Source: a virus. From it: a stretch of DNA of 20,072 nucleotides. The notes below the pieces were generated by a model. The model did not search any database and was not told the DNA's origin. It worked only from the letters and a program-made list of their open reading frames with translations. The stretch's first letter is position 1. Every line of letters begins with the position of its first letter. The DNA lies in the IMG/VR virus record IMGVR_UViG_3300047550_005009, positions 1-20,072 of that record. One strand, 5' to 3'. The position numbers and the translations under genes were made by a program. Shown piece by piece: positions 1-13,323 of this stretch.

Positions 1-233
1 GCAGAGGTTAAGGTAGAGATACCTAACTGCCTTGACTTGTTTATAATGGTGTAATCGTGTCTTTGTAGGAGTCTAAGAACTTTTTCCTGAAACGGGTAGA
101 GATTAAAGGTCATCCTACCTCTAGTAGGGTGTTGAATAGTGTAGTACTTCTTCATGAAGTATACAGGATCTTGCTTACACCGTATTAATTCTTGTTTAAT
201 TGCATCACCTATAGCTGTACGCGTGGTTGTCAT
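1..233 (-). CDS. Terminase large subunit, N-terminal part (cut by window edge)
   Basis: The frame opens with ATG at 233 and stays open to the window edge, giving 77 residues of a longer protein. The segment NLYPFQEKVLRLL (residues 43-55) followed by a strand and NKSRQLGIST (64-73) is the adenine-binding Q region and Walker A loop of phage large terminase ATPases, which drive DNA into the prohead. The usual lysine of T4-type loops (SRQLGK-T/S) is Ile71 here. A lysine at the start of the loop (Lys65) may substitute, as in the deviant Walker A of lambda gpA. The gene starts 20 bases after the stop of the 153-aa gene, the usual place for the large subunit after the small one. The nuclease domain lies outside the window. 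The family call is secure from the ATPase motif; the choice of subfamily is inference. Confidence 0.88.
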   Translation of the reverse strand, partial: MTTTRTAIGDAIKQELIRCKQDPVYFMKKYYTIQHPTRGRMTFNLYPFQEKVLRLLQRHDYTIINKSRQLGISTLTS

Positions 234-241
234 TTATAAAA

Positions 242-249
242 ATTTATAA
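242..249 (-). promoter_or_regulatory. Possible T4-like late promoter box before the terminase gene
   Basis: The minus strand reads TTATAAATT here, close to the T4 late consensus TATAAATA, eight bases before the terminase start. A second TATAAAT overlaps the start codon itself. The region is very AT-rich, so chance is a real alternative. Transcription from this box would leave almost no 5' leader. Confidence 0.25.
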
Positions 250-253
250 CCCC

Positions 254-715
254 TCAAGCTAGATCGTCTTGATCATCCTCTAATTCAGGTTGCATAGCCT
301 TTTGAATATCGGCTCTCAATTTTTTAATTTGTGTAGGAATATTACCAATAGCGGCTTTATATTGATCTAGACTTAATTGTCCGCTCTTAAGCTGCATTAG
401 TAATGCATCTTTTTGGTCTTCTAGACCTTTTAATTTAAGTTCTTTAGTATGTAGATTTTTAGTCTGTCTATCAGTCCTAACGCTTGTTGGTGCCGGTTCT
501 TTTTCTACTTCGCCTCCAAAATCTTCCTTCTCGTCATCGGATTTATAAGGATTATCAGCATCAGGATCAAACATTTCTTCATCACCTTGTTCCGCTCCCA
601 TGGCCAGTTTTTCGGCATCAGTTTTAGTCATGCCACCGACATTATCCTCTTCGTTCAACTTGGAACGCTTAGTTAATCTGTTCTCTACTAAGAACTTTGG
701 TAGATTAAATATCAT
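254..715 (-). CDS. Coiled-coil protein upstream of TerL; candidate small terminase subunit
   Basis: This 153-aa protein has no family I can name with certainty. It starts with a short hydrophobic/basic segment (NLPKFLVENRL, 4-14) and a second L-N-E at about 20-22. A strongly acidic, probably disordered stretch follows (about 40-75), then a charged helical region rich in Leu, Lys and Asp (about 88-145) that looks like a coiled coil, and an acidic tail. Its size, its helical core and its position directly before the large terminase gene match the T4 gp16 small subunit, which recognises DNA and regulates packaging. No DNA-binding motif is evident. The LVEN/LNEE N-terminus also resembles the capsid-targeting-like N-termini of other proteins here, so an internal head protein is the alternative. 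It ends with TGA, so the phage uses UGA as stop. Confidence 0.8.
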   Translation of the reverse strand: MIFNLPKFLVENRLTKRSKLNEEDNVGGMTKTDAEKLAMGAEQGDEEMFDPDADNPYKSDDEKEDFGGEVEKEPAPTSVRTDRQTKNLHTKELKLKGLEDQKDALLMQLKSGQLSLDQYKAAIGNIPTQIKKLRADIQKAMQPELEDDQDDLA

Positions 716-729
716 AGTGTCGTTTATTA

Positions 730-737
730 ATAAATAG
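730..737. promoter_or_regulatory. ATAAATAG intergenic motif (copy 1)
   Basis: The plus strand reads ATAAATAG, so the minus strand reads CTATTTAT. It lies one base after the stop of the 83-aa gene and 14 bases before the next start. Near-identical elements sit before the genes starting at 3262, 10198, 11746 and 16498. The function is unknown. Confidence 0.3.
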
Positions 738-738
738 T

Positions 739-990
739 TTAAAGTAGTGAATCAGAAGATATATCTGTAGGAGCTATAACTTTCTTCTGGGTTAGCTTTT
801 CCTTCCATTCTGCTTTTGAATACCGGATTCCGTAAAGGTAATATTCGGGTGCTTTGCCTTCATTTTCGGCATAAATCAGAGCCGGTCCGTCTACAGAATG
901 CATTTTACTAACCTGTCCATCGACTTGTAAATAGCTAATAGTTTTTCCGCAAATAGTATTTATTGTTCTAACAACGCTTTTTGTTCTCAT
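739..990 (-). CDS. Small phage protein with DGPALIY / EYYLYGIRYSKAEW motif
   Basis: This 83-aa protein contains a short beta-rich unit, VDGPALIY (residues about 33-40) then EYYLYGIRYSKAEWKE (about 49-64). The pattern 'DGPA-x-x-Y ... E-Y-Y-x-x-G-x-x-Y/H-S-K-E-W' recurs in many small phage proteins, where it resembles single MORN-like repeats ending in a tryptophan helix. The biochemical role of the family is not known to me. The gene is the first after the terminator at 1036-1060, so it probably begins a separate transcription unit with the 153-aa protein and the terminase. No signal peptide, membrane segment or cysteine cluster is present. The ATG start is the only sensible one, since the terminator and A/T-rich leader lie directly upstream. 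Confidence 0.8.
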   Translation of the reverse strand: MRTKSVVRTINTICGKTISYLQVDGQVSKMHSVDGPALIYAENEGKAPEYYLYGIRYSKAEWKEKLTQKKVIAPTDISSDSLL

Positions 991-1006
991 GCTCTAGGTT
1001 TTATTG

Positions 1007-1035
1007 ATAATAAGAAAAAATATTCAAACCTCCAA
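1007..1035 (-). promoter_or_regulatory. Possible sigma70-type promoter after the terminator
   Basis: The minus strand carries TTGGAG (1035-1030) and TATTAT (1012-1007) separated by exactly 17 bases. These match 4/6 and 5/6 of the -35 and -10 consensus. Transcription would start near base 1000, about ten bases before the 83-aa gene. If the host is Bacteroidota, whose promoters differ, this match would mean little. Confidence 0.25.
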
Positions 1036-1060
1036 CAAAAAACCCTCCGAATTTGGAGGG
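1036..1060 (-). terminator. Rho-independent terminator ending the long upstream operon
   Basis: The minus strand has a perfect 6-bp G/C-rich stem, CCCTCC with GGAGGG (1060-1055 and 1048-1043), a 6-base loop and then an immediate run of six T (1042-1037). The plus strand lacks a T run after the stem, so the direction is clear. It begins 21 bases after the stop of the 136-aa gene and is the only strong intrinsic terminator I see in the window. Confidence 0.9.
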
Positions 1061-1081
1061 CTTTACTGACTGAGCAGTTTT

Positions 1082-1492
1082 TTATGCTTTAAGGCTATCT
1101 ATCCATTTGTATACCTCTAGTTCTTTTTCTGTGTCAACGTAGTTACCAAACTCTGTTATTTCAAAAAATCCTCTTTTTTCTCCTTCAGCTACTATTTTCT
1201 CTACAGTCAACCCTGGTTTCAACCTTACCGGTTCTGGTTCGTCGTCTTCTTCATCTGCTGCAGAAGCAATATCTAACCAGTAGCAGGAGCCGCCATAATC
1301 GGCAAGCGCAAATAATGTTTGCTCCCAACTATCATCACTGATAAAAACTGTATAGCTTGGACTATCTAATAATCTATCAACCGTTACTGCAAATTCAGGC
1401 ATGTCTGATAAGTCGAGATCATCGTCCTCTTTTAAAAGACCTGCAATCTTTTGCATTTTACGGACTTCGTCAAGTAGTGCTCTTTTTTTCAT
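1082..1492 (-). CDS. Small acidic phage protein with 'RMQKIAG' N-terminal module
   Basis: I chose the ATG at 1492. It lies one base after the TAA of the upstream gene (TAATATG), whereas the longer reading from a GTG at 1561 would add 23 very basic residues antisense to nothing and overlapping the upstream coding end. The protein is then 136 aa. Its first 20 residues, LLDEVRKMQKIAGLLKE preceded by MKKRA, match the N-terminus of the 106-aa protein at 2942-3262 almost residue for residue, while the rest differs. The body has an acidic loop, a beta-rich section (about 30-75) and an acidic DEEDDEPEP stretch before a helical C-terminus. I do not recognise the body. The shared head suggests a targeting or processing signal, possibly for loading into the capsid. 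It is the last gene before the terminator. Confidence 0.78.
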   Translation of the reverse strand: MKKRALLDEVRKMQKIAGLLKEDDDLDLSDMPEFAVTVDRLLDSPSYTVFISDDSWEQTLFALADYGGSCYWLDIASAADEEDDEPEPVRLKPGLTVEKIVAEGEKRGFFEITEFGNYVDTEKELEVYKWIDSLKA

Positions 1493-1493
1493 A

Positions 1494-1964
1494 TTAAGCT
1501 TCTGTTTTTTCTGCTTCAGCTTCTGCCGGCGGTGTTTCTTCTTCAGCCTCTTCTGGTTCACCTGCTACCTGTTCTTCTCCTTCAGGACCCTTAGTCTCAA
1601 TGGGATTACCGACGGATAATATACGTGCGATAGCATTAGTACATCTCTCTCTTTCCCCGATTGTCTGTAGGTAAAACTTCTTTCCCGCTACTGTCGCCTC
1701 GTAGGCCTTACCTAGGAAGGTGAGCATGAAAGTTTGTCCATTGTGAAGAACTATTTTAAAAGTGGTGGGCTTGGGTGCAACAATGTATATACCTGTAATA
1801 TAGTCTTTAAAAGCGGGAGACATTAGCATCTCCAAGGTTTTTCTGAGGGTTGGATACTTCTGTAGTATGAAATTAATAGGATCATCTTCAAAAGATTTAA
1901 CTTTTGGTTCCATCCTCTCAACTTCGTTGAGTATCAACCTTCTTATGATATCTCTATTTGTCAT
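1494..1964 (-). CDS. Uncharacterised 156-aa protein with acidic tail
   Basis: No family is recognised. The N-terminus (MTNRDIIRRLILNEVERM) is a basic amphipathic helix with an L-N-E core, like several neighbours. The middle (about 25-115) is a mixed alpha/beta fold with LHNGQTFMLTFLGKAYEATV (about 74-93) as a likely beta sheet. The last ~38 residues are almost entirely Glu, Ala and Pro and should be disordered. The start follows the endolysin stop as TAATATG, which suggests coupled translation. The same 12 bases, AGCTTAATATGA, occur at the junction at its own 3' end. A capsid-internal or accessory role is only a guess from the N-terminus and its neighbours. Confidence 0.75.
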   Translation of the reverse strand: MTNRDIIRRLILNEVERMEPKVKSFEDDPINFILQKYPTLRKTLEMLMSPAFKDYITGIYIVAPKPTTFKIVLHNGQTFMLTFLGKAYEATVAGKKFYLQTIGERERCTNAIARILSVGNPIETKGPEGEEQVAGEPEEAEEETPPAEAEAEKTEA

Positions 1965-1965
1965 A

Positions 1966-2565
1966 TTAAGCTAATAACGCGTGATACTCTTTAAAATGTT
2001 TGATACGATCGGCAAGTCCAATTGTACCTCCGTTTACGAGTTTAGTTATTTTAGTTACTACAGCATCGGTGGCACCTTGATCGGCTACTGCATTGATCTT
2101 ACGGCTATTCCAGTACCAGGCAGCTGATAACAAAGGATACTTTGTAGCAACAAGGTCAGGGTTGGCTAAAATATCTACACCGACTGCTTTACCAAATGCA
2201 GTATAATTATCCTTTCCTGTTAATTGAATGTATCCACGTCCTCTATGTTTCCACCCGTCTCCAGATGCCTCTGGGCCGTTACCCATTCTACCTCCGTAAA
2301 TTAAGTTGGCGATCTTTTCGGGCTTACGCTCGTATAATTTAGCTTTTTCTGGTGTAGGAAAATACTTTTTAAAAAGACCGAGTAATCCCTTTGCACCGTA
2401 ATTTAAATTCTCGTTTACTACTCTAAAATTACCGCTCTCGTGTCCGCACTGAGAGAGAAAATGTGCAAGGCGCAAAGGCGTATTGATAGCAAACTTAGTT
2501 CCTACTTCAGGAATCTGAGCGATTACAGTATCGGGTACGTGTCCTTTTAGTTTATCTAGATTCAT
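1966..2565 (-). CDS. GH19 chitinase-like endolysin (lysozyme)
   Basis: This 199-aa protein is a single glycoside hydrolase family 19 domain, the fold of plant chitinases and many phage endolysins that cut peptidoglycan glycan strands. The diagnostic elements are in order: RLAHFLSQCGHESGNF (32-47) with likely catalytic Glu43, NENLNY (51-56) with likely second acid Glu52, then the RMGNGPE...GDGWKHRGRGYIQLTG block (about 93-118), and NYTAFGKAVG. Length fits the catalytic domain alone. There is no signal peptide, membrane anchor or cell-wall-binding domain, so release would need a holin, which is not evident nearby. It sits among small accessory genes near the terminase. A virion-associated hydrolase is possible but less likely without a tail domain. 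Confidence 0.93.
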   Translation of the reverse strand: MNLDKLKGHVPDTVIAQIPEVGTKFAINTPLRLAHFLSQCGHESGNFRVVNENLNYGAKGLLGLFKKYFPTPEKAKLYERKPEKIANLIYGGRMGNGPEASGDGWKHRGRGYIQLTGKDNYTAFGKAVGVDILANPDLVATKYPLLSAAWYWNSRKINAVADQGATDAVVTKITKLVNGGTIGLADRIKHFKEYHALLA

Positions 2566-2570
2566 TTTAC

Positions 2571-2930
2571 CTAGCTTTTTGGTTTTTTACCTGCCTTTTG
2601 TAACGCTATTGCAATAGCAGCTTGTTGTGCTTTGCTATGTGCTTTCTCTTCTATTCCGTATCCAGGACCTGGTTCTTGCATACGGCTAGATTCGCCGGCT
2701 AAATACTCAGCTACTGAATGCATATAGTCGGCAGCAAGTGAGATATATGCCGATACCCATCCTGGTAAATTATCACCTTCACCTACCATATGGTCAATTT
2801 TAGAGGCGTTAGAGATCATATCTCTCAACTCGTTCTTTGCCATACCGGCCTCGTGATCGTGTCCGTGATTCCAGTCACGTGCACACTCGTTGCATTGGCC
2901 TTCTGGTAGTAAATGTTTTAGCTTTATCAT
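2571..2930 (-). CDS. Small phage protein with 'ELRDM..AS..DHM' helical domain
   Basis: This 119-aa protein belongs to a family I have seen in marine T4-like phages but cannot name. It begins MIKLKHLLPEGQ, an N-terminus with a short hydrophobic/basic helix and L-P-E, followed by a Cys/His-rich piece (C-N-E-C and H-G-H-D-H, about 13-26) that could bind a metal. The central helices (about 30-80) contain LRDMISNASKIDHMVGEGD and LPGWVSAYISLAADYMHSV. The C-terminus (about 99-119) has SKAQQAAIAIALQKAGKKPK, a basic tail also common in phage proteins. It lies five bases upstream of the endolysin gene. A role as a virion-internal or regulatory protein is speculative. Confidence 0.8.
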   Translation of the reverse strand: MIKLKHLLPEGQCNECARDWNHGHDHEAGMAKNELRDMISNASKIDHMVGEGDNLPGWVSAYISLAADYMHSVAEYLAGESSRMQEPGPGYGIEEKAHSKAQQAAIAIALQKAGKKPKS

Positions 2931-2941
2931 TTTAAAGATTT

Positions 2942-3262
2942 TTAACCAATTATGCTTATATTACGGGGAGCTTTCGCATAAAACTCTGCGTCAGGAAATG
3001 CATACATGTACTCCCCCGAAGGTAGCTTATATACTCCAAATGTTCCACCATACTTGTCGTTTTGGTAAACGGTTTCAACGTTACCACTTTCCAGGTTCTG
3101 AATATCTTCTTCGGATGCATCTAAAGTAAAAATATCATCTCGATTACCTTGATCTCCAAAATCAATATCAGCAATATTAATAGTTTTTTCGTTAATACTC
3201 TCTTTTAGAATACCGGCAATTTTTTGCATCCGACGAATTTCGTTCAGTGTTTGCTTTATCAT
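2942..3262 (-). CDS. 106-aa protein with 'RMQKIAG' N-terminal module
   Basis: The N-terminus MIKQTLNEIRRMQKIAGILKE (written here without its last residues as TLNEIRRMQKIAGILKE, 5-21) is shared with the protein at 1082-1492, but the rest is unrelated. The body (about 22-106) is acidic, with two predicted beta-rich sections, ending KLPSGEYMYAFPDAEFY and a short basic tail. There are no catalytic motifs, cysteines or membrane segments. The gene is preceded by a 12-base gap holding a CTATTTAT element immediately after the stop of the 394-aa gene. The conserved head on different bodies suggests a signal, such as capsid targeting or protease processing at L-N-E. The function of the body is unknown. 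Confidence 0.78.
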   Translation of the reverse strand: MIKQTLNEIRRMQKIAGILKESINEKTINIADIDFGDQGNRDDIFTLDASEEDIQNLESGNVETVYQNDKYGGTFGVYKLPSGEYMYAFPDAEFYAKAPRNISIIG

Positions 3263-3266
3263 GATA

Positions 3267-3274
3267 ATAAATAG
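3267..3274. promoter_or_regulatory. ATAAATAG intergenic motif (copy 2)
   Basis: It fills most of the 12-base gap between the stop at 3275 and the start at 3262 (minus strand CTATTTATTATC then ATG). It is identical over eight bases to the copy at 730-737. Confidence 0.3.
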
Positions 3275-4459
3275 TTAGCAATGATAGTTTAAATATCTTT
3301 GAAGTGCTTTTGCGTAATGAGTCCCTTTATTTTTTAACTTGGATTTAGCAGATCTTACTCTGGAACATGATAGTTTTCCTAGTCTTTTTTTAAGGATTCC
3401 GGGTTTTACCGGGTCATCTATTCCTTCATCTAAATCTTCTAAACCTGTATCATCTTTCTTAAGATCTTTTTCTATATCCTTCATCGTATTTGTAGCCCAT
3501 TGTTTTTGATCAGGTGTCAATTCATCATTAACAGCGTTTTCTACAAAAGAAATAAATTCGTCTTCACCTAATTTGTATACTTGAGCAAAAAACAATTCAC
3601 GAACGCGTGCATCTTCTATATTACTCTCATTATATAATTTTGAGATAGCATCATAAAAAAATTTACCAAACCGTAAATCGTTTGGTTCATTAGATACCTT
3701 ATCTACAGCTCCGACAATGGCTTGATTTTTTTCTTTATCTGGACCAAATCCTTCTGTACCTACAATTTCGTATAATCCTTTTACTATTTCGTGAACGAGT
3801 ACTGGGAAGCAGATTGCTTTTGCTTTAATAACAAACTGTTCGTTTTCTTCGTCATACTCCATTTTACTTTCACCGCCTTGCATTTGACCTCCAGCACCAC
3901 CCCTCTGGGCAAGGGCGGCAAGCATCATAGCAATCGCGTTTGGGTCATCATAGACACCAAAAGATAGTTTTAGTATTTCGTTATATTTTTGAACTAACTC
4001 TGGATTAATTTGATCTAAATATTCTCTAAAAAGCATAAAACCAAAAGCACCTCTAATAGAAGCACCTTGAGTAATACCATTAATTATACGACGTTTTGCT
4101 TTTAATTTTTCAGGATCTCCTTCCCCGAAGTCAGGTAACGATGGATCATCCTGAGGTGGAGGTTCTTGAATATTCATATCACCCGTACCTACAATCTTAC
4201 CGTCGATTTTTATATTGGCGTAATCAATAATAGGATAGGCGTCGGTAACAATTTGTGCAGCTACCATCTCCAATTCATCTCGATAGTCTTTTTCTGCTTC
4301 TATTATTTCACCTAGTAGTTGCTGGGATTTCATCATTGCTTGCATCATGTTCTTGTTACCAAGCATTTGACGTAAAGATTCCCCGGACTTACCCTTAAGG
4401 GCGTTCATAGTCTTAGGTGAAAATATTTTTTCGTATTCTATTTCTAGAAGTTTAGCCAT
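3275..4459 (-). CDS. 394-aa conserved phage protein (GASIRGAF / YLNYHC family)
   Basis: I recognise this as a family recurring in uncultured T4-like phages, without a known function. It is mostly helical and acidic. Recurrent blocks are INGITQGASIRGAFGFMLF (about 126-144), FGVYDDPNAIAMMLAALAQ (about 167-185), FPVLVHEIVKGLYEIVG (about 218-234) and a basic C-terminal module, KLSCSRVRSAKSKLKNKGTH...RYLNYHC (about 361-394). That last module also occurs at the ends of other phage proteins, so it may be a separate targeting or binding unit. A Gly/Gln loop lies near 186-196. The gene overlaps the 86-aa gene by eight bases, so the two are probably translated together. Its location between uncharacterised structural-region genes suggests a head-associated or virion-internal protein, but this is inference. 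Confidence 0.85.
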   Translation of the reverse strand: MAKLLEIEYEKIFSPKTMNALKGKSGESLRQMLGNKNMMQAMMKSQQLLGEIIEAEKDYRDELEMVAAQIVTDAYPIIDYANIKIDGKIVGTGDMNIQEPPPQDDPSLPDFGEGDPEKLKAKRRIINGITQGASIRGAFGFMLFREYLDQINPELVQKYNEILKLSFGVYDDPNAIAMMLAALAQRGGAGGQMQGGESKMEYDEENEQFVIKAKAICFPVLVHEIVKGLYEIVGTEGFGPDKEKNQAIVGAVDKVSNEPNDLRFGKFFYDAISKLYNESNIEDARVRELFFAQVYKLGEDEFISFVENAVNDELTPDQKQWATNTMKDIEKDLKKDDTGLEDLDEGIDDPVKPGILKKRLGKLSCSRVRSAKSKLKNKGTHYAKALQRYLNYHC

Positions 4460-4712
4460 TCTTTTTAGTTGTTCTAAAACGTTTAACGATTTTATCTAAC
4501 ATTTCAGCTTCTTTCATTGAAGCTTTGGCTTTAGGTGCAGGTTTAACATCGGGGTTACCTAGAGGACGGCGAGGCTTTGGTTTACCTGGTGCTTTAGTAG
4601 GCGGTTCGGCTACGCCCGGTTTTTCTTTTGGTTTAGAAGGAGCAGGTGCATTCTCCACTATATTCTTCTTCACAATACGGCGTAGTATTTCTACTATTAC
4701 TTTCTTATTCAT
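4452..4712 (-). CDS. Small Pro/Lys-rich protein
   Basis: This 86-aa protein starts with a basic amphipathic helix (MNKKVIVEILRRIVKKNIVE, 1-20) containing I-V-E and V-E-N. A long disordered Pro/Lys/Ala segment follows (about 22-65), then a short basic helix (about 66-82). No known family is evident. It overlaps both neighbours by eight bases, which indicates translational coupling and a genuine gene rather than a spacer. The strongly basic, proline-rich middle could contact DNA or another protein. The N-terminus fits the set of capsid-targeting-like peptides described in the findings. Confidence 0.7.
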   Translation of the reverse strand: MNKKVIVEILRRIVKKNIVENAPAPSKPKEKPGVAEPPTKAPGKPKPRRPLGNPDVKPAPKAKASMKEAEMLDKIVKRFRTTKKNG

Positions 4713-7377
4713 GTTTCTTATTTATATGCTTACGCAAAATTTGTTTAAACTCTTCTAGATTATTAGGGTTAGTATCTAAATAACTTCTTATTAAATATTT
4801 TTTAGCTTCTGCCAGGTTACGTTGACGTAGTGCTGTTATCAAATCTCTAGGTTCGTCTAATTGTAGAGCTGCTTGACCAGGTATCAGTAAATATTCTCTA
4901 TTACCCGGATATACCTTAATTGAAATTACAGTTTGACCGTTTCTAAGTCTTATTATATACATACGGCTCTGGCCTACAGCTATTGCATCTGTTACAATTC
5001 CGGCAGTACCTAATAACTGGTTTCTACGGCGAGCACCTCCATCAGTTAAGCGGTTGAGAGGAGCTGCGTTATCAATATTCAATCTACGTCTATCTCGGTC
5101 TGGGAGTCTATTAAATTGCACGGCTGCGCCTAATTCGGTCATTTTGTCTCCTACACTAATGTTACCTACCGGTGCGGGTTGTTGCCAGTAGGCACGTGTT
5201 ACGCCTTGCTGTTGTGGCTGTTGTGTGGGTTGTTGTTGTGGGGCTTGAACGCCTAGTAGTTGATTTGCTTTTGCAGCAGAAATTGGTGCTTGTACTAGCC
5301 CTCCACGTGTAGATGGCTTACGAGTATTTCTTGGATTTTGTGGATCTATTAATAAAACCCTATCACCATCAACTGCTAACTTGAATCTATTCTGCGGATT
5401 AACAGGAGGATTAGAAGCGGCAAAGTCGTACAAACTATTATACATTCCGTTCCTTAGGATATCGATCAGCAGGGCGTCGTCAATCAAATTACCGCTCTGT
5501 CTTAAGTAATTGAAATAGGCAGGATACATTGATCGATCTAAATTTTCTTGAGTATCATACCGCCTCCAGTCTCTACCTCTTCCAAATAAAGCCGGTGAAA
5601 TAGTATAGGCTCTACCGTTTGTAGGATTAGTCTGCATAAAAAAGAAATTCCTCTCACCTTGCGGCGTCGATAATAACACCACTCTATCCTCTCCTTCTCC
5701 AAATGTTCTATTACCGTAAGGTATCGATTCTACAACGTTTAATAAAGCGTCTTTGTCTACGGTAGCAGAAATATCTTTATTTGTTCTAAATATGTTAAGA
5801 ACATTCTTCTGGAATGTTTCATTATCTATAGAGTCGTCGAATGCTTGCTGTACTTCTTCGTCATTAAACGGTACCTGTGTTACATTACCTTCTTTGTCTA
5901 TCTTAAACGAGGTCAGAGAACTTGAATCTAGTATAATCTCACCATTATCAACAGGCTTGACCGTAGTACCGCTCTCTCCGGGTTTCTCTTTTATCTTTTC
6001 TACTAACTTTTTAATTACATCGTTACTTATTGCTCCGTCCTTTACTAAATCTACAAAAGTCTTAAAAGGGACTTTTTCTAATTCAGGATAATCTAGTAAA
6101 TATTTTGATGTTCTTTTTGTCAGTTTTACATTCGGGTAATTATCATCTTCTTGATACAATTGAATCTTTAACGGATCTTCAAAAGTTAACTTTACTATTG
6201 TATCACCATCTTTAGCTACATACAGTCTCTCATCAGGTTTTAATTCGTACTTACCGAGTTTAACTAAAAGCTTCTTGACGTTAAAAGGTAAAAATGAGGA
6301 TGCTAAATATTTTTGATCGACATCTTCAAAGAAGTTTGCCATTATCGAACGTCTTGCCGAATCAGGGAACTTCTCTAGGGCTCTTATGAGGAGAGTAGGT
6401 TTAATTACACCGGGAGTGGTAGCTACGAAATTAAGTATTTCTGGATATTTCGCTAAATGGTTTTCTACAAAATCTCTATCGTCTATATCACTAAAGATTC
6501 TCTCGTTACCGTTTCGCCCTCTAACGTCTTTCCTGACAACTAGGTATTGTTTCTTTACTGAAAACGGGAATTTAGTCCACTCGCTGTAACTTACAGGATT
6601 GTTTTTATACTGCTGTGTTACTTTTTCGCCGGTTGATAGCGGTATGTATTTCAGAACATTCTTAAGGTTTGGGATTTCTCTTAACCAAGGAACTTCTCTT
6701 TCGAGTCGATCTAGACTCATTGGCTCTGATTCGTTAGGCGAATTCTCTCTATTTGTATAAACGTATCTTTCGTCTACATCTTCTGTCTCAGGATTTCTAA
6801 CTTGAATAGCTACAAAGCTTAGTTTATTACTATCAGACAGGTTTGTATTTCTAGCCAGGTAAAAAGTTGGGTAACCTCTTTGTGAACTATACCTGTAATT
6901 GGCATAAGAACCTCTAGTTATACACCATTTCTCTCCTTTTCCAAATTTTATACAATTACCTTCTTTACTTCCGTTATATACTGCAATACTATCATCATCG
7001 TTGTGGTAGACTACATCCGGTGTTATATCTATTGCTTCAGGTGCTTCATCTCCAGGGCTTGCAGTTGCGAATTTAATAAGTTTAGAAATAGACCATTTAT
7101 CTAAATCTCTTTGATCGGGAGGTAATTTTTCTTTCCCTTTATCAAAATTCTTAATATAATTTTCTAGATCTTCATCTGTAACATTAATATTTAAATCTTC
7201 AGCCTCATCTTTAAATTTTTGAATAAACTTTTTTAAAGTTCCTTCACTGTAGGCCTCATTCATAGAACTAGGCCAATTATACACAGTATGCTCTATGAGC
7301 TTGTAGATAAGTTTTTTATTACGCTTAGAAGTACAGGGCGTACATTCTTCTTTTTCTATGTCTACTGATTTCATCAT
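4705..7377 (-). CDS. 890-aa uncharacterised protein with GxxWCIT domain
   Basis: The function is unknown. After a short Cys-containing start (CTPC, 12-15) and a helical acidic section, residues about 122-215 form a domain with NCIKFGKGEKWCITR (141-155) and GYPTFYLAR (168-176). The pattern 'C-I-x-Y/F-G-x-G-x-x-W-C-I/T' followed by a 'Y...PTFYF' strand recurs in large proteins of marine and jumbo phages. The middle (about 250-700) is a series of helical and beta sections without recognisable motifs. A Gln/Pro-rich linker (about 705-724) joins it to a C-terminal part (about 740-890) with a beta sheet and a basic helical tail. No membrane segments are present. It overlaps the 130-aa gene as ATGA and the 86-aa gene by eight bases. 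A virion-internal or host-modifying protein is a guess. Confidence 0.85.
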   Translation of the reverse strand: MMKSVDIEKEECTPCTSKRNKKLIYKLIEHTVYNWPSSMNEAYSEGTLKKFIQKFKDEAEDLNINVTDEDLENYIKNFDKGKEKLPPDQRDLDKWSISKLIKFATASPGDEAPEAIDITPDVVYHNDDDSIAVYNGSKEGNCIKFGKGEKWCITRGSYANYRYSSQRGYPTFYLARNTNLSDSNKLSFVAIQVRNPETEDVDERYVYTNRENSPNESEPMSLDRLEREVPWLREIPNLKNVLKYIPLSTGEKVTQQYKNNPVSYSEWTKFPFSVKKQYLVVRKDVRGRNGNERIFSDIDDRDFVENHLAKYPEILNFVATTPGVIKPTLLIRALEKFPDSARRSIMANFFEDVDQKYLASSFLPFNVKKLLVKLGKYELKPDERLYVAKDGDTIVKLTFEDPLKIQLYQEDDNYPNVKLTKRTSKYLLDYPELEKVPFKTFVDLVKDGAISNDVIKKLVEKIKEKPGESGTTVKPVDNGEIILDSSSLTSFKIDKEGNVTQVPFNDEEVQQAFDDSIDNETFQKNVLNIFRTNKDISATVDKDALLNVVESIPYGNRTFGEGEDRVVLLSTPQGERNFFFMQTNPTNGRAYTISPALFGRGRDWRRYDTQENLDRSMYPAYFNYLRQSGNLIDDALLIDILRNGMYNSLYDFAASNPPVNPQNRFKLAVDGDRVLLIDPQNPRNTRKPSTRGGLVQAPISAAKANQLLGVQAPQQQPTQQPQQQGVTRAYWQQPAPVGNISVGDKMTELGAAVQFNRLPDRDRRRLNIDNAAPLNRLTDGGARRRNQLLGTAGIVTDAIAVGQSRMYIIRLRNGQTVISIKVYPGNREYLLIPGQAALQLDEPRDLITALRQRNLAEAKKYLIRSYLDTNPNNLEEFKQILRKHINKKHE
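4719..4726 (-). promoter_or_regulatory. Perfect TATAAATA late-promoter-like box
   Basis: The minus strand reads TATAAATA, the T4 late consensus, within the last codons of the 890-aa gene and six bases before the start of the 86-aa gene. A transcript starting a few bases after it would be leaderless or nearly so. It is the only perfect copy I found in gene orientation. A few chance copies are expected in a window this AT-rich. Confidence 0.25.
5206..5243 (-). repeat. CAA/CAG-rich tract coding for a Gln/Pro linker
   Basis: On the minus strand this tract of CAA, CAG and CCA/ACA codons encodes an interrupted polyglutamine linker at about residues 711-724 of the 890-aa protein. It marks a domain boundary and could change length by slippage. 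Confidence 0.6.
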
Positions 7378-7766
7378 TTTGTTTTACCCCATTTTTTACC
7401 TTTACCTGGATCTTTACAAGCTGAAGGTGTTGGTCTACAAGAAGGATATTTAGATCTTTTTTCACCTTTTTGTCTACCGCAAGACTTACATTTAGTCTTA
7501 CCATCTACCTCTCTACATGTATTACAGTCTACCCATCCTTTCGATCCACCAGAACCTCCTTGTCTTGAAAACCATTTATGAAGAGATTCTTTCTCTTCAG
7601 TGATATCTTCTTCTTTTAGTCCTTTCCAAATCTTTCCTTGACGACATCTTACGATTGCACCAGAACGGTAGGCAGAAGGCTTATCATACTTGCGGCGAGC
7701 AATACGAAGACAGCGGTCTTCTTTTTCCTCAATAATCTCGTTTAGTATGTCTGATAATTTAATCAT
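7374..7766 (-). CDS. Cys-rich basic protein, putative zinc binder (DUF5872-like)
   Basis: This 130-aa protein has two parts. The first (about 1-55) begins MIKLSDILNEII, a targeting-like N-terminus, and contains DKPSAYRSGAIVRCRQGKIW (28-47), a segment repeated in other phage proteins. The second (about 60-130) reads LHKWFSRQGGSGGSKGWVDC, then C-x2-C-type pairs (N-T-C-R, C-K-S-C-G) and RSKYPSCRPTPSAC, and ends in a very basic tail. I recall the second part as the family called DUF5872, a small zinc-ribbon-like domain without known function. The spacing of the cysteines suggests one or two metal sites. It starts one base after the 496-aa gene (TAATATG) and ends in an ATGA overlap with the 890-aa gene, so the three are coupled. 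Confidence 0.85.
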   Translation of the reverse strand: MIKLSDILNEIIEEKEDRCLRIARRKYDKPSAYRSGAIVRCRQGKIWKGLKEEDITEEKESLHKWFSRQGGSGGSKGWVDCNTCREVDGKTKCKSCGRQKGEKRSKYPSCRPTPSACKDPGKGKKWGKTK

Positions 7767-7767
7767 A

Positions 7768-9258
7768 TTACCAAGCTCTACAGGACCAGTAACGTGCCTT
7801 CCAGCGTGGTCCAGGGTTACTGCATTTATGTCTTGCTCTAAAACTCCTTCTACGGGCAGGATTAGATTTTTTTATTCGCATGTTAGGGTCACCAAAGTTA
7901 ACCTTCACTACATTACCCTTTGCATTCTTAACATACACAGATCTTTTCTTTGGGCCTCCAGGGGTTAAAAAAGGTTTACCGAGTGATACTTTGCGTCCTC
8001 TGTATTCAGCTTCTTCTAATTTATGCTCATACTCCATCAAGTATTCCATCAAACAAGCCTCACAAAATTGATCTGTTTCGTCGATAAACTTTGGATCGAA
8101 ATCCGATAGATCTTGTTTCAATTCTTCGAATTCTCTCTGATTTATTTCGTGTACGTAGTTTACTACGTCTTCGATCTTTTTAAAATACCATCCTTTATCC
8201 TGTAAATGAGCTAATGCGTCAGGATTTTGGTGTAGATAGTTTATAAAAGCTTCAACTCCTGATGAAGTACCGGATAGTTCTTGAATTTCTTCTTCTACAT
8301 CTGCTCTCACTTGGTGAAATTCACCTGCCCCGTCATCGACCATAGTATGCATTTCATTAGTTCTACGGCTACAATGATGTTTTCCTGTTAAAAAAGGTTT
8401 AGGGCAACTAGTGCCCTTTACGTGGACATGCCCGCATTTACCGCAGCATGTACCTTTTTTCTCCTCTAGAGACATATCTTCTCTTTTTAAAGTTTTACCG
8501 AAGTATGCATTTGTGAAAATATTTTCAAACCGGCGAGTATCTTGAAATTTTCCTCCTTTTAAAACAGGTTTTTCAAATTTAACTTCTACCCAATCTACCA
8601 CACCATTTGTACCCCCCTTACCTCCTCCTGCTGCTGCTATTACTATTCCTTTACCGTATTGCTTGTGTTCGAAAGGGCTGCCTTTTCTGTAGTCAGTCCT
8701 TACTTTATAGGGTAACGAAGTTTCTGAAGCTTTAATTATTTCTGGTTTCTCTTCTTTCTCGATTACCCTGTTACCGTCAATATCTACTAGAAATTCTGCG
8801 TAAGATGGAGTGTATACGCCTGGAGGTCTTACGCCTAGATCTTCTGGTCTCTCTCTTTTAAGGTGATCTTCAATAGTGATCAATATCTGTTCATCATCTG
8901 ATTTGTAAGTAGGATACATTGTTAGAGCCTTATCGTTGGCTACAACAACTAAGTAGATCGTTCCACCTCCATCCCCGTTAATTATTCCTATATTATACTT
9001 CTTGCCATTATGTACCAGTTGAGGAATAAAAACCTTAACGCCAAGATTAACGTTATTAGATCTTCCGACGTTACTAACCTCAAGCCTTGTTAAGTTTTCG
9101 TTTAATTTTTCTTGAAGTACAGAAATTAACTTGCTATCGACTTCTTCTTTATTTCTATCTCCGTAAACAGCTTCAGGGAGCTCAATAGCTTTGATTGTAC
9201 CTCGCTCTGCTTTTCGTTTGAGGTAGTGGTCTGTTCTTATAGCTTCCCATAGTTGCAT
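7768..9258 (-). CDS. 496-aa multidomain phage protein with YGxG and Cys-rich modules
   Basis: This is a composite protein of unknown function. The N-terminal part (about 1-135) starts MQLWEAIRTDHYLKRKAERG and contains LGVKVFIPQLVHNGKKY, a mixed alpha/beta unit that recurs in phage proteins. Residues about 195-252 hold FEHKQYGKGIVI and WVEVKFEKPVLKGGKF...TRRFENIFT, which looks like a small Tudor/CarD-type beta barrel. Next is a Cys/His cluster (GTCCGKCGHVHVKGTSC and KHHCSRR, about 267-300), probably zinc-binding. After a helical acidic part (about 310-410) the C-terminal ~60 residues carry GNVVKVNFGDPNMRIKKSNP, ARRRSFRARHKCSNPGPRWK and ARYWSCRAW. I have seen that last unit at the C-terminus of several marine phage proteins. 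The modules suggest nucleic-acid contact; this is inference. It begins as TAATG from the 120-aa gene. Confidence 0.85.
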   Translation of the reverse strand: MQLWEAIRTDHYLKRKAERGTIKAIELPEAVYGDRNKEEVDSKLISVLQEKLNENLTRLEVSNVGRSNNVNLGVKVFIPQLVHNGKKYNIGIINGDGGGTIYLVVVANDKALTMYPTYKSDDEQILITIEDHLKRERPEDLGVRPPGVYTPSYAEFLVDIDGNRVIEKEEKPEIIKASETSLPYKVRTDYRKGSPFEHKQYGKGIVIAAAGGGKGGTNGVVDWVEVKFEKPVLKGGKFQDTRRFENIFTNAYFGKTLKREDMSLEEKKGTCCGKCGHVHVKGTSCPKPFLTGKHHCSRRTNEMHTMVDDGAGEFHQVRADVEEEIQELSGTSSGVEAFINYLHQNPDALAHLQDKGWYFKKIEDVVNYVHEINQREFEELKQDLSDFDPKFIDETDQFCEACLMEYLMEYEHKLEEAEYRGRKVSLGKPFLTPGGPKKRSVYVKNAKGNVVKVNFGDPNMRIKKSNPARRRSFRARHKCSNPGPRWKARYWSCRAW

Positions 9259-9620
9259 TAATGCAAGAATTTAAGCTTATATTTAGTTGACTGTATCAAG
9301 GTCATTACTTCATCATACTGATTTACAAGAAAAGTGTCTTGAGGTAATGAAGGTAGAATTGCTTCTACGAATTTGCATAGCCCTTCAAAATACATTGCGG
9401 GGTTTTCGTCCTCTTTAATCGTACCTGCCATCTTATAATCACGTAAAATACCGTATTTACCTTGGTAACTCTCTACAAGTCCATCTATTAATGGAATAAT
9501 ACCTTCGTAATAGCCTTGTAGAGCAATATGCTGGGCATAAGAAGGTGTTTGCAGGTGGTAGATGTGAGCCTGATTACGACTCTGCATCAAGGTTCCAATA
9601 AAAGTTCCGTACTGTTCCAT
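9258..9620 (-). CDS. Small all-helical protein (DUF5856-like, possibly ferritin/Dps-like)
   Basis: This 120-aa protein has the pattern LMQSRNQAHIYHLQTPSYAQH (about 11-31; quoted in part) then ALQGYYEGIIPLIDGLVESYQG (about 33-54), typical of a phage family I recall as DUF5856. The His, Glu and Asp residues on successive helices (H19, H22, H31, D46, E50) resemble the metal-binding face of ferritin-like and Dps four-helix bundles, but the protein is shorter than Dps (about 160 aa). A role in iron or DNA protection is therefore only a hypothesis. It overlaps both neighbours by one base (TAATG), the tightest coupling in the window. There is no signal peptide or membrane segment. Confidence 0.82.
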   Translation of the reverse strand: MEQYGTFIGTLMQSRNQAHIYHLQTPSYAQHIALQGYYEGIIPLIDGLVESYQGKYGILRDYKMAGTIKEDENPAMYFEGLCKFVEAILPSLPQDTFLVNQYDEVMTLIQSTKYKLKFLH

Positions 9621-10198
9621 TATTTTTCTTCGATTTCAGGTAATTGCTTTTTAGCGGCTTTAACCATTTTGTGCTTATCTCGCAACCCTTTAATCATGGC
9701 CATCTTTCTTTCAGCGAGGTCATGATGTTTTTCAGACATTTCTGGAAGATCAGTAGCATCTTTCATATGACTGTTGATCTCTTTCTGAAGTCTGGCAATA
9801 TGTTTATCGATTTTCTCTAGAACAGTATCTTTTTTCTTCTCAACTTCTTCTAAATGCTTACGAAGCTCCATGCAAGCTGCTTCTGCAACTAGCTTTGCTT
9901 CTTCTTCTTCATTGTAAACTCCGTGAACACTTTGAGGCTCAAACTGTCCCATACCAAAAGCATGTGTTTGATGCATCACATCATCAGGTGTAGACTCAGG
10001 TCCGGGCTTTAGAACTACGAAAATCTTACCGATTTTATCCTCGCATCCTGGATGATCCCAGTTTTCTGATATTACTGGCTCTTCAGATACGTGTTGAGGT
10101 AGATTTGTGATATCGGGAGTATGTGCAGCCCACTTTTTTGCAATCTTGGGGTGCTTGGCGAACATAAATCGCTGTTGAGCTTGTGATTTAAAGGGCAT
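9620..10198 (-). CDS. Phage protein with 'MPFKSQAQQRFMFA' N-terminus
   Basis: The first 30 residues, MPFKSQAQQRFMFAKHPKIA then KKWAAHTP, are a motif known from many phage proteins ('SQAQ' unit), in which a basic helix ends in a Trp and a T-P-D/N turn. Its role is unknown to me; DNA or virion binding has been my working guess. The middle (about 55-105) is a folded section with GKIFVVLKPGPESTPDDVMH, reminiscent of the acylphosphatase-like or MbtH-like short domains but not diagnostic. The rest (about 105-192) is a long charged helix, probably a coiled coil. It lies two bases after the 194-aa gene and overlaps the 120-aa gene by one base. A TATAAATA element (opposite strand) lies about 20 bases upstream. 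Confidence 0.82.
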   Translation of the reverse strand: MPFKSQAQQRFMFAKHPKIAKKWAAHTPDITNLPQHVSEEPVISENWDHPGCEDKIGKIFVVLKPGPESTPDDVMHQTHAFGMGQFEPQSVHGVYNEEEEAKLVAEAACMELRKHLEEVEKKKDTVLEKIDKHIARLQKEINSHMKDATDLPEMSEKHHDLAERKMAMIKGLRDKHKMVKAAKKQLPEIEEK

Positions 10199-10200
10199 TT

Positions 10201-10785
10201 TTATGGATTTTCTCCATTATAAATATCCAGTTTTCGTAGTTCAGCAATCTGTTCTTTAACCTGTTTATAAATGGCTTTTCTATCGCCTCCATCCCATTTT
10301 TCGACCTCTCCTTGTTCAGATACAAAGGTTTCTGATTGATCTACCCATTGCTCTAGGGCTGCTTCTAGGTGGTCTAATTCAGCGTTCTTATTACGATTCA
10401 TAATATTTGCAGAATATTCGTTCCATTCACCGAGACGCTTAATTTCTGACTCCATTTTAATAACGCAATCAAAGCATTTCTTGTGAATACCCCACATTTT
10501 TTTGTTGTAATCATTAATTTTCATCAAGTTTCCACATTCTGGACATGTAAGAGGCATTAGTACCAGCTCTTTTATCTTATCGAGCTTGGTAACAGACATT
10601 TTAATTCCGTTCTTTATAGTCCATTTCTTACCGTTTTCTTCCCAAACGTCCCCTTCTTTGTGGTCTTGATTACTCTTCTCGTATCCGGTTTGGATTTGAG
10701 TTCTAGCACCTGTATCACCGGTGATAATGTTTCGCATCCTCTGTACATCGCGAGGATTGAACTCTTTCTTAAGATTATTTTCCAT
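10201..10785 (-). CDS. Zinc-ribbon protein of marine T4-like phage type
   Basis: This 194-aa protein has three parts. Residues 9-65 contain NPRDVQRMRNIITGDTGA and EGDVWEENGKKWTIKNG, a segment I have seen in marine T4-like phage proteins. A zinc ribbon follows with C81-x2-C84 and C104-x2-C107, joined by a 19-residue loop. The C-terminal half is helical and acidic (about 110-194). The function is unknown; the ribbon could bind DNA, RNA or a protein. It sits between the metallopeptidase and the SQAQ protein in one continuous operon. No catalytic motif or membrane segment is visible. Confidence 0.85.
   Translation of the reverse strand: MENNLKKEFNPRDVQRMRNIITGDTGARTQIQTGYEKSNQDHKEGDVWEENGKKWTIKNGIKMSVTKLDKIKELVLMPLTCPECGNLMKINDYNKKMWGIHKKCFDCVIKMESEIKRLGEWNEYSANIMNRNKNAELDHLEAALEQWVDQSETFVSEQGEVEKWDGGDRKAIYKQVKEQIAELRKLDIYNGENP
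10218..10225. promoter_or_regulatory. TATAAATA motif (copy 3), opposite to the genes
   Basis: The plus strand reads TATAAATATC within the last codons of the zinc-ribbon gene, 19 bases before the next start. The ten bases match those at 11753-11762. The orientation is opposite to all genes. Confidence 0.25.
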
Positions 10786-10794
10786 AACTAAAAC

Positions 10795-11166
10795 TTACAA
10801 AACATCTAAATTATATACGCTTAAATTTAATTTTCCGTATTCTCTCATTATAATTCCAGCTATCGCATTAGCATCATTTTCAATTTCTGTCCCAGTTTCA
10901 CCAGCATCACTATAAATTAGATTTAGTTCCTGCTGCCGATGATGTACTAGTTCGTGAGCAAGACTTCTACATACATCAGCAAGGTTTCTCCCGGTTATAA
11001 ACACCTTTACTGTCATTTCACCAGGATTATATTCACCGAAAGATCTACGCATCTCCACAAAGCTTCTGTCTTTTACTAAAGAGATTTTCGGAAGAGATTG
11101 AATCTCTAGCTCTTTTTTGCAGAAGCCAACAAAGTGTTTTAGTATATCAAGATTCTTCTGGTTCAC
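10795..11166 (-). CDS. Small HELVH metallopeptidase-like protein
   Basis: This 123-aa protein is a compact gluzincin-type zinc peptidase domain. H71-E-L-V-H75 supplies two zinc ligands and the catalytic Glu. The later GTEIENDANAIAG (92-104) gives a probable third ligand (Glu96) in the position used by ImmA/IrrE and SprT-like families. It is shorter than SprT, lacks a C-terminal zinc ribbon, and has no DNA-binding domain. The role could be processing of a phage or host protein; the substrate is unknown. The start is GTG at 11166, overlapping the nucleotidyltransferase gene by 20 bases. No ATG lies before residue 39, and starting there would lose the first helix but keep the HELVH site. Confidence 0.85.
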   Translation of the reverse strand: MNQKNLDILKHFVGFCKKELEIQSLPKISLVKDRSFVEMRRSFGEYNPGEMTVKVFITGRNLADVCRSLAHELVHHRQQELNLIYSDAGETGTEIENDANAIAGIIMREYGKLNLSVYNLDVL

Positions 11167-11746
11167 TTTTGCTCATTTTAGGGGCAAGCATTTTAAATAT
11201 CTTTGATGCAGCCCCGCGATTGTATGCCGATGTTGGAACAGATTCTTTAAACTCTTCATAGTCCCCCGTCTGTAATAATGTTCTTACATGCGGGGCAGAA
11301 GCGTTTGCTTGTCTCTCTTTGACTTTTATCACCTTAACTCTATCCCCGAATTGCTGCTGAAGGGAATTCCCATACTCCATATCATCACTCTCATCATCTC
11401 CTACAGCAATATACACAGGATCTACTGTGGGATTCTTTGCTAGAAAATCTATTATAGTTACAACCGGGGATTCTTTAGTTGAAATACGAACTGTTATCTT
11501 AGGGTTAGGTTCTGCTTGAAGATACATGTTCCAAATCATAAGAGAGTCTTCCGGCGTAATCCCGTCTATTACTTTCTTACTTATAATGATATATACCTTG
11601 TTGATATACGGTTTTGCAGCTAGAGCTTTTGCAGCTTCGTAATGTCCTTTATGTGGAGGCTTGAATCTTCCTGGATAAAAACAAGGGCCTGGTTCGTTCA
11701 GAACAGCTTCAGCAATAGTTTTTCCTAGTATTTGAGGATTAATCAT
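11147..11746 (-). CDS. HxGH nucleotidyltransferase (NMNAT/cytidylyltransferase-like)
   Basis: This 199-aa protein belongs to the HxGH nucleotidyltransferase superfamily, which transfers AMP or CMP from a nucleotide triphosphate. FYPGRFKPPHKGH (23-35) holds the phosphate-binding H32-K-G-H35, and SAPHVR (150-155) is the second, ISxxxR-like motif near the C-terminus. GDDES (116-120) is typical of the substrate loop. The closest match in layout is archaeal-type NMN adenylyltransferase (NadM/NadR-like), which makes NAD+, but substrate cannot be read from the sequence. A 20-residue N-terminal extension ends in VLNEP, echoing the L-x-E N-termini of other proteins here. It lies between the exonuclease and the metallopeptidase and overlaps the latter by 20 bases. 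Confidence 0.88.
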   Translation of the reverse strand: MINPQILGKTIAEAVLNEPGPCFYPGRFKPPHKGHYEAAKALAAKPYINKVYIIISKKVIDGITPEDSLMIWNMYLQAEPNPKITVRISTKESPVVTIIDFLAKNPTVDPVYIAVGDDESDDMEYGNSLQQQFGDRVKVIKVKERQANASAPHVRTLLQTGDYEEFKESVPTSAYNRGAASKIFKMLAPKMSKSEPEES

Positions 11747-11761: not shown

Positions 11762-12400
11762 CTACCCTAAAAGCAATTTAGGTTTTGCACCTTCTATCTC
11801 TTCTCTTAGCTCCTCCATATACTTTACAGCTATCTCTATTCTTTCCTTTATTAGAGATGCTTCCTCCTTATCTAATTCTAACCTGTATATAAACATCTGA
11901 TAGTCGCTAGACACGCGAGGATCAAAGCTAATAAAGTCACACCACTTAGCCTTAGCACAGATCATATTAGAAACGCATTGATAGTAGTAGTTTGGAGCTA
12001 CCTTCTTGAATTTTGCTGGGCTATCTATCAATCCGTGTTTAAAATGATTGGCAGACTTAAACGGGCACTTTACTTCAATCACTCCATCAGGTTTAACAAT
12101 ACCGTCTGGAGATCCGCCATAGAATTTGTTTACAACAATAAAGGATGCTTTTTCAACCTCTGTTTTTGTAACCTTCGAATAGTGTTCGATCGCTACCGGT
12201 TCAAGTTCTGTACCCCAGTCAAGAGCCTGTCCGTGTGCTGGTTCAGTTACTCCGCCGAAATTCTCACATACTTTCTCTAGTAGATAGGTCTTAGCCGTTT
12301 CGGTTAGTCCTTTCTCTCCCATTATTTTGTGAATTTCCGAACTAGTGATTTTACCTCTCCTTATCTTAAACCATTCCTCTGATCTTTGTTCAATTAGCAT
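11762..12400 (-). CDS. YqaJ/lambda-exonuclease-like recombination nuclease
   Basis: This 212-aa protein is a YqaJ-family (PD-D/ExK) exonuclease, which degrades one strand of double-stranded DNA ends for recombination or replication. Motifs in order: EQRSEEWFKIRRGKITSSE (4-22), W62-G-T-E65-L-E67, GGSPDGIV (95-102) with Asp99, and IEVKCP (108-113) with Glu109 and Lys111, the metal-binding and catalytic residues. Length fits the lambda exonuclease core. No single-strand annealing partner is evident next to it. The start overlaps the end of the primase gene by seven bases, so the two are probably coupled and act together in DNA metabolism. Confidence 0.93.
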   Translation of the reverse strand: MLIEQRSEEWFKIRRGKITSSEIHKIMGEKGLTETAKTYLLEKVCENFGGVTEPAHGQALDWGTELEPVAIEHYSKVTKTEVEKASFIVVNKFYGGSPDGIVKPDGVIEVKCPFKSANHFKHGLIDSPAKFKKVAPNYYYQCVSNMICAKAKWCDFISFDPRVSSDYQMFIYRLELDKEEASLIKERIEIAVKYMEELREEIEGAKPKLLLG

Positions 12401-13323
12401 AGTTGCATTTTTTTAAGCAATAACTCACCGAAGGTAAGCTGTTTTGCTGTGTGTAAATATTTTGTTATTTCTTCGAACCCTATTTCTGAAGGATCTTTTC
12501 CTTCTAACTCTACCAAGTAAACATCTTTACCTAAGTTAATTAATTCAAGAGCGTAATTAAAAGACTGCTTTAAAGCATCATTATCTAAGACTAAATAAAC
12601 AGTTTTAACATTACTCTGTACAAGCTTTAGCATTAAAGCCCTTGGAATAGTTTTACCAAACAGAGGTATAGCATTTCTCCTCAACGCTATTGCATCAAAT
12701 ATACCTTCACATAGAATAACAGGTACATTCCAGTTAATAAAGTACTCCAAGCCTATCAACTCATTCTTATTACAAGAAGGAGCATTATATTTTCTACGAG
12801 GCTCTTTTTCAAACGACCTTGCTATAAAGTAATTTATACGTCCATTGTTATTGTAAGAAGGAATTATTATAGAATTTGCATACTTTCCTTTTTCACAGTA
12901 ACCTATGTTATACTTTAAAATATCTTCTTCTGTTATATTCCTACTTTTGATGTAGGCCTTAGCCTGACGGTAGGTTATATTAGTACTTTTTTGAGAAAGG
13001 GATATAAACTCTTTAGGCATCTGTACTACTTCATATTTCTTATCTTCTAACTCTACCTTACCGCCCGGAAAGTAGGTCTTCATTTCAGCTATCTGCGCCG
13101 AGCTTGCTTGTAACTTTTTTAAGAGAGATACTAAATTACGTCCTTTAGTAGCAGGCTCGCAAGTCCAACAGTGGTAAAAGCCGCTCTTTGGATCTATCTC
13201 TAATTTAGGCTTATGATGCTTACAAAAAGGGCAATAGAAAGCATAATTCCCTTTAGTTGAAGGTTTAGATTTACCTAATACACTATGTAAGAGTCCGAGA
13301 ACTAGACGTGATTGCTCCATCAA
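12394..13323 (-). CDS. DNA primase (CHC2-like zinc finger plus TOPRIM)
   Basis: This 309-aa protein is a compact DnaG-type primase like T4 gp61, making RNA primers for lagging-strand synthesis. The zinc-binding domain has C31-x2-C34 and C52-x2-C55 with the FYHCWTC signature. The linking region (about 115-180) carries the RNA-polymerase-basic-domain elements, including ARSFEKEPRRKY. The TOPRIM fold follows, with ILCEG (203-207, Glu206) and YLVLDND (243-249, Asp247 and Asp249), the metal-binding acids. There is no fused helicase, so a separate DnaB/gp41-like helicase is expected elsewhere. It starts 27 bases after the GIY-YIG gene stop and overlaps the exonuclease start by seven bases. Confidence 0.93.
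   Translation of the reverse strand: MMEQSRLVLGLLHSVLGKSKPSTKGNYAFYCPFCKHHKPKLEIDPKSGFYHCWTCEPATKGRNLVSLLKKLQASSAQIAEMKTYFPGGKVELEDKKYEVVQMPKEFISLSQKSTNITYRQAKAYIKSRNITEEDILKYNIGYCEKGKYANSIIIPSYNNNGRINYFIARSFEKEPRRKYNAPSCNKNELIGLEYFINWNVPVILCEGIFDAIALRRNAIPLFGKTIPRALMLKLVQSNVKTVYLVLDNDALKQSFNYALELINLGKDVYLVELEGKDPSEIGFEEITKYLHTAKQLTFGELLLKKMQLC

Follow-up and report, generated by a model that had tools for sequence, protein, structure and literature searches.

Candidate T4-type capsid-targeting leaders and a probable modular cargo set in a Far-T4-like viral contig

Introduction

In phage T4, the ten-residue leader of the internal protein IPIII combines targeting (residues 4 and 7) with processing (residues 8 and 10) (PMC9026906), and T4 Alt is an injected ADP-ribosyltransferase (PMC5512222). 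Here we analyze comparable N-terminal leaders in a single linear viral contig of 20,072 bases (IMG/VR record IMGVR_UViG_3300047550_005009; hereafter the window), in which a run of some 17 genes, most of them unnamed and together referred to as the cassette, lies between genes for a YqaJ-type nuclease and the terminase large subunit. A sequence-only reading of the window had proposed, from eight N-terminal peptides, that this run encodes proteins packed into the head behind T4-like signals. Sequence comparison with related phages makes it likely that this aquatic, Far-T4/Immutovirus-like myophage targets proteins to its capsid and processes them with gp21 in the T4 manner, and that its cargo set is enlarged and modular; the products of the region would probably include many proteins that travel within the virion.

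The Far-T4/Immutovirus-like group, to which Flavobacterium phage immuto is the closest reference, is characterized by a T4-type terminase, portal, gp21, and gp23; membership is indicated here by the terminase and by synteny. Immuto is the nearest cultured relative (the terminase of a near-identical relative of the window is 59% identical to that of immuto), followed by Microcystis phage Mel-JY01 and then by the more distant Far-T4 isolate RM378. A megablast search of the window against phage records gave zero matches, and most cassette proteins have no or weak matches to curated families. We found no published description of leaders of this kind in Far-T4 phages in a search made mostly without subscription papers, and neither the protease nor internal proteins are mentioned in the Far-T4 genome paper.

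Results

The eight N-terminal peptides are all present on the minus strand where the sequence-only reading had placed them. Two of them begin proteins with what we term class B leaders, which closely follow T4. In the product of 7374-7766, which has a DUF5872-like body, the leader MIKLSDILNE↓IIEEKEDRC (7737-7766, minus strand, as are all features below; the arrow marks the candidate cut site) places L4, I7, L8, and E10 in the T4 register; a leader, though not always of this type, is found in 9/9 distinct family members. The leader of 2571-2930, MIKLKHLLPE↓GQC (2901-2930), has hydrophobic residues at 4, 7, and 8 and glutamate at 10; its standalone homologues keep LLPE, LIKE, or LLRE, apart from one without a site (IIGK). 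The exact T4 register recurs in MIKLxDLLxE proteins of relatives, and the remaining leaders in the window share only the hydrophobic-x-E part.

These remaining leaders fall into three further types. Class A, FNLxKFLxE↓N[KR]LT, is represented by MIFNLPKFLVE↓NRLTKRS (683-715) on the 153-residue product of 254-715; its site (FLVE/FLIE/YLTE↓N[RKN]LT) persists in 4/4 distinct homologues from one family and in 3/3 from a related family, and the same type begins other immuto proteins (103806, 117631, 118632). Class C, LNEIRRMQKIAGILKE, is found on 1082-1492 as MKKRALLDEVRKMQKIAGLLKE↓DDD (1427-1492) and on 2942-3262 as MIKQTLNEIRRMQKIAGILKE↓S (3200-3262), the latter matching, by tblastn, a protein encoded in the syntenic region of immuto. 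The LNEI and LLDEV peptides of these two proteins are the first part of a longer common leader, L-x-E-x-x-R-x-Q-K-I-A-G-[IL]-L-K-E. The leader of 1082-1492 has the form E..R[ML]Q.[LI]AG[IL], and this RMQ type begins both proteins flanking gp21 in the related genome G001 (54916, 58919), which links it to the head core operon. The gene at 1492 has a possible upstream GTG start at 1561; the ATG at 1492 was taken for analysis. The last type (class D) comprises basic helices resembling MKKSQLRxIIRE, with 1494-1964 and 4452-4712 as the nearest examples in the window. By homologue comparison the leader of 1494-1964 is MTNRDIIRRLILNE↓VERMEPK (1923-1964), in which the [LI]xE position persists in homologues whose bodies are as little as about 64% identical; a group at 40-49% has another leader instead.

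Two of the eight cut sites proposed earlier were misplaced. For 4452-4712 the site had been put at KVIVEIL, but relatives instead conserve IVE↓NAP, residues 18-20, at the end of a 20-residue leader (MNKKVIVEILRRIVKKNIVE↓NAPAPSKPK, 4653-4712); [LI]xE↓N[AQ]P is kept even as the leaders before it differ (LNE↓NAPA, LSE↓NQPA, LTE↓NQPA, LVE↓NAPA). The second concerns a candidate cargo (11147-11746), a nucleotidyltransferase assigned to the NadD/CoaD fold by structure model and profiles. Here AEAVLNEP had been read as the site, but its LNE is followed by proline, a poor P1' residue, and the invariant glutamate lies instead at IAE↓A (residues 11-13), matching the end of the T4 IPIII leader. The N-terminal extension is MINPQILGKTIAE↓AVLNEPGP (11693-11746), with the glutamate at residue 13 invariant in 30 homologues. 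In the NadD/CoaD-like model (Foldseek E 1.5e-7) residues 1-15 make up a separate helix ahead of strand 1, and alignments with NMN adenylyltransferase profiles start at residue 21-23. The case is weaker for the nucleotidyltransferase, which had been counted among the tagged (leader-bearing) proteins, than for the proteins with MIKL leaders.

The prohead protease was sought beyond the window, as was the same signal on further genes, and both were found. Of 11 related contigs, nine encode a gp21-like protease (PF03420; E 4e-23 to 6e-36), among them the near-identical G006 of 51 kb. In an alignment with the T4 enzyme, the proteases of the relatives keep the GELDHP and SSR motifs, and most have LIE or LID at their own N-terminus; T4 gp21 also has such a site at its own N-terminus (PMC9026906). 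Where T4 gp23 has its maturation site, FLTE↓A, the aligned capsid proteins read VTE↓A, VLE↓S, VSE↓A, VVE↓S, ISE↓A, and VTE↓T, so that V/I/L-x-E occupies this position in all relatives. The gp23 site independently points to a clade protease that cuts after a hydrophobic residue, any residue, and glutamate. Genome G001 (contig L095) carries two tandem gp23-like major capsid genes (60985-62652 and 62727-64433) with near-identical N-termini.

By sequence, the leaders are portable between unrelated proteins. The DUF5872-like body stands behind MIKL-type leaders in most phages and behind MNTSELQQLIRE in G002, and a deoxynucleotidase is tagged in immuto (109856) and untagged in G001 (36070). Candidate sites also occur at internal borders, rather than as N-terminal leaders, in 3275-4459 and 7768-9258, each composed of several modules; most cargo is single-domain. 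In 3275-4459, LDE↓ (3425-3433) directly precedes a C-terminal basic module (GIDDPVKPGILKKRLGKL...YLNYHC, 3278-3424). Elsewhere, the last 49 residues of this protein are found in standalone proteins 62-68 residues long, whose leaders differ greatly in sequence and end in hydrophobic-x-E in 20/20 distinct forms; when the module is fused, the site stands directly before it in 9/11 distinct contexts. In 7768-9258, LEE↓ (8011-8019) precedes a second C-terminal basic module (AEYRGRKV...WSCRAW, 7771-8010). Across distinct upstream contexts of this AEYxGRKV module, [LIVMF]xE lies exactly at the border in 52/66, or in 21/34 once similar contexts are grouped. Contigs with the border site, which are shorter, encode gp21 in 6/18 cases, and those without it, several above 90 kb, in 0/17 (p 0.019), although the contigs of both sets are fragments and lineage may play a part. 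An 841-residue immuto protein (114006-116531) fuses domains that the window encodes as individual tagged proteins, among them the body of 2571-2930. A set of contigs of up to 157 kb (L213-L245) that lack gp21 and gp23 have Ala, Ser, or Gly, not Glu, before the AEYQGRKV module; HK97-type proteases (PF14550, PF04586) were considered for the contigs without a boundary site and were not found there.

Several tests addressed whether such motifs exceed chance. Within their first 20 residues, 12/18 cassette open reading frames (ORFs) contain a loose [LIV]xE, where shuffling within proteins gives 6.7 (p ~0.006), and a stricter motif, requiring hydrophobic residues at P7, P4, and P3 with glutamate at P1 or an E..RMQxxAG leader, is found in five (1.0 in shuffles, p ~0.002). 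These counts from the window alone are suggestive and not decisive; it is the comparative tests that decide. The motif used also fits T4 IPII, IPIII, and Alt. In four near-complete genomes it occurs within the first 26 residues of 27, 30, 23, and 33 proteins, as compared to 11.2, 13.6, 12.0, and 12.7 in shuffles. Motif hits are concentrated in the syntenic head/terminase module, with 46/143 ORFs against 70/700 elsewhere (pooled odds ratio 4.3, p 2.5e-10). Consistently tagged families number 11 of the 107 with at least three distinct members (0.5 expected); in eight of the 11 every member is tagged with a clear leader, and the three at the bottom of the ranking resemble chance hits. In a motif-independent comparison, residues 2-11 of proteins from different families share at least six identities in 134 pairs, a few of which are homologues missed by clustering; five control windows placed deeper within these proteins give 2-5 such pairs. 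Sequences of the same lineage are not independent in these tests.

Enzymes of effector type are found behind leaders in relatives. In contig L046, a leader-tagged kinase and a leader-tagged protein with an ADP-ribosyltransferase (ART) fold are encoded just before the nucleotidyltransferase. The G001 member of this kinase family matches zeta toxin (PF06414, 6.6e-10), and the model of the ART-fold protein is closest to KptA/Tpt1 (E 1.4e-5), with DarT and other ARTs ranking lower. An NT5C-like nucleotidase also stands behind a leader in relatives. Such enzymes would fit delivered cargo better than scaffold alone. Separately, the product of 3366-3806 in contig L124 (immuto 103366) has the leader MISIYNILKE↓V and a kinase-like glycine-rich stretch (Pfam Pkinase E 0.38), and is a possible delivered kinase.

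Gene starts in the analysis were those of the longest ORFs beginning with ATG. The clear genes of the window all lie on the minus strand and run from tail genes at high coordinates to the terminase large subunit, of which the N-terminus (3-233) is truncated by the window end and which in relatives marks the start of the head genes. A primase (12394-13323) and the YqaJ-type nuclease (11762-12400) lie between the tail genes and the cassette. Only about half of the genes in the stretch are tagged; those without a leader include 739-990, 1966-2565 (an endolysin), 4705-7377, 9258-9620, 9620-10198, and 10201-10785. The 890-residue product of 4705-7377 has no family match and contains the stretch GKGEKWCITRGSYANYRY...PTFYLARN; its relatives are 37-50% identical, and its N-terminus is variable, reading MYRLLDILLE in contig L010. 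The product of 9258-9620 is a DUF5856 protein that shares its PHROG annotation (starvation-inducible regulator) with T4 rI.-1, and it adjoins the cassette in relatives too. A HELVHH metalloprotease-like ORF with a GTG start (10795-11166) overlaps the end of the nucleotidyltransferase gene, and longer fused versions of it occur in four contigs (L016, L017, L018, and L022). A GIY-YIG-type protein (13351-13818) matches phrog_447 and homing endonuclease families; its homologues are named "NAD synthetase" in PHROGs and in immuto, which looks like a misannotation. The head module of Mel-JY01 (PP395634.1; contigs L126 and L127) is syntenic with that of immuto. Cyanobacterial cultures often contain Bacteroidota, so the stated host of Mel-JY01 may need checking.

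Discussion

By analogy with T4, the MIKLxDLLxE leaders and the three other types would dock their proteins on the prohead core as the T4 capsid-targeting sequence does. A serine protease of the gp21 type would then cut after hydrophobic-x-E, removing the leader before DNA packaging, and in the larger proteins the interdomain sites may allow it to free modules from fusions. The freed proteins would remain in the head and enter the host along with the DNA. A broader proposal, which we regard as evenly poised between right and wrong, is that Far-T4-like phages practice modular delivery, in which interchangeable leaders and protease-cut borders load some 10-15 effectors per phage and a new effector is swapped in by being joined to a leader.

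Among the alternatives, the one that survives best holds that the tagged proteins are prohead core or scaffold components like T4 gp22, gp67, and gp68, whose gp21 fragments leave the head so that nothing is delivered to the host. The class C leaders that G001 has on proteins next to gp21 and the scaffold, the small, acidic, or low-complexity nature of several bodies, and the presence of sites within proteins would all suit such a role. It does not account for folded enzymes without a scaffold role (the nucleotidyltransferase, kinase, nucleotidase, and ART-fold protein), among which the leaders are swapped, and we consider it unlikely; scaffold and cargo roles can coexist. Still less probable is that the leaders are permanent, uncut docking helices for virion or membrane assembly, with the terminal glutamate lying within the helix. 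The short amphipathic N-termini and the helix in the nucleotidyltransferase and ART models would agree with this; against it, the glutamate and the P3 residue stay while the remainder of the leader varies, and the same signature recurs at module borders inside proteins as well as at the gp23 maturation site. Chance is very improbable even though hydrophobic-x-E strings are common, AT-rich genes often begin MIK or MKK, and the loose motif appears in roughly a quarter to a third of shuffled N-termini, for it conflicts with the shuffle and control-window tests, conservation in divergent homologues, and head-module clustering; the related idea of ordinary enzymes with motif-like starts was ruled out by the conservation and control-window tests.

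Several observations weigh against a T4-type targeting and processing system. Neither PF03420 nor gp23 is present in the window, the lack of the former being attributable to the window being a 20-kb fragment. Leader classes A, C, and D are unlike T4 in sequence beyond the hydrophobic-x-E end. The tagged bodies are no more basic than other proteins of the module, though some are, such as that of 7374-7766. The module enrichment is non-significant in G003 (p 0.22) and in the short nearest relative G006, and the motif was chosen after inspection of the sequences. In the part of RM378 that was read, such leaders are nearly absent. Two ideas were set aside in the course of the analysis: RM378, being almost leaderless, was dropped as an additional example, and a generally basic character of mature cargo, like that of DNA-bound proteins, was unsupported for the group. 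Overall, the T4-like interpretation of the leaders drew strength from gp21 in relatives, the V/I/L-x-E rule, the T4 register, portability, and module clustering, and lost ground over the two displaced sites and the nucleotidyltransferase.

If the T4-type system is real, a leader with hydrophobic-x-E in the head module of gp21-bearing phages would single out virion-carried proteins among the many uncharacterized ones of abundant aquatic phages, and these would probably be injected at the first moment of infection. This would provide a testable list for the cultured phage immuto (host Flavobacterium sp. LMO8), as well as candidate tags for loading proteins into the heads of this phage group. Predicted cut sites in immuto include VSE↓A in gp23, LVE↓N in 118632-118931, LLE↓E in 109856-110455, and LRE↓A in 112261-112575.

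The principle proposed is that of T4; the apparently novel features are how large the set is, the variety of leader types, their clustering, and the module-border sites. Like T4 IPI, IPII, IPIII, and Alt, the candidate system has a leader of about ten residues with hydrophobics at 4, 7, and 8 and glutamate at 10, the same protease family, and the same head gene order, and an ADP-ribosyltransferase-fold cargo like Alt is seen in a relative. Unlike T4, about 10-15 candidate cargoes per genome, with packaging predicted only, lie between the tail and terminase genes, and at least four leader types are accompanied by sites at module borders. In heads of the SPN3US/phiKZ type, many inner-head proteins likewise lose propeptides to a prohead protease and are ejected, but the SPN3US propeptides are mostly far longer (e.g., 124-127 residues; PMC5694885) than the 10-22 or so seen here. 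A short N-terminal stretch also suffices for head entry of phage P1 DarB (PMC9024508); the N-termini of the Dar proteins have no reported consensus (PMC9024508), whereas many proteins share leaders here. Polyvalent proteins are similar in being mosaics of small domains, including ART domains, that are predicted to be injected (PMC5512222), while the proteins described here are mostly short, each with its own leader, and have candidate protease sites between domains.

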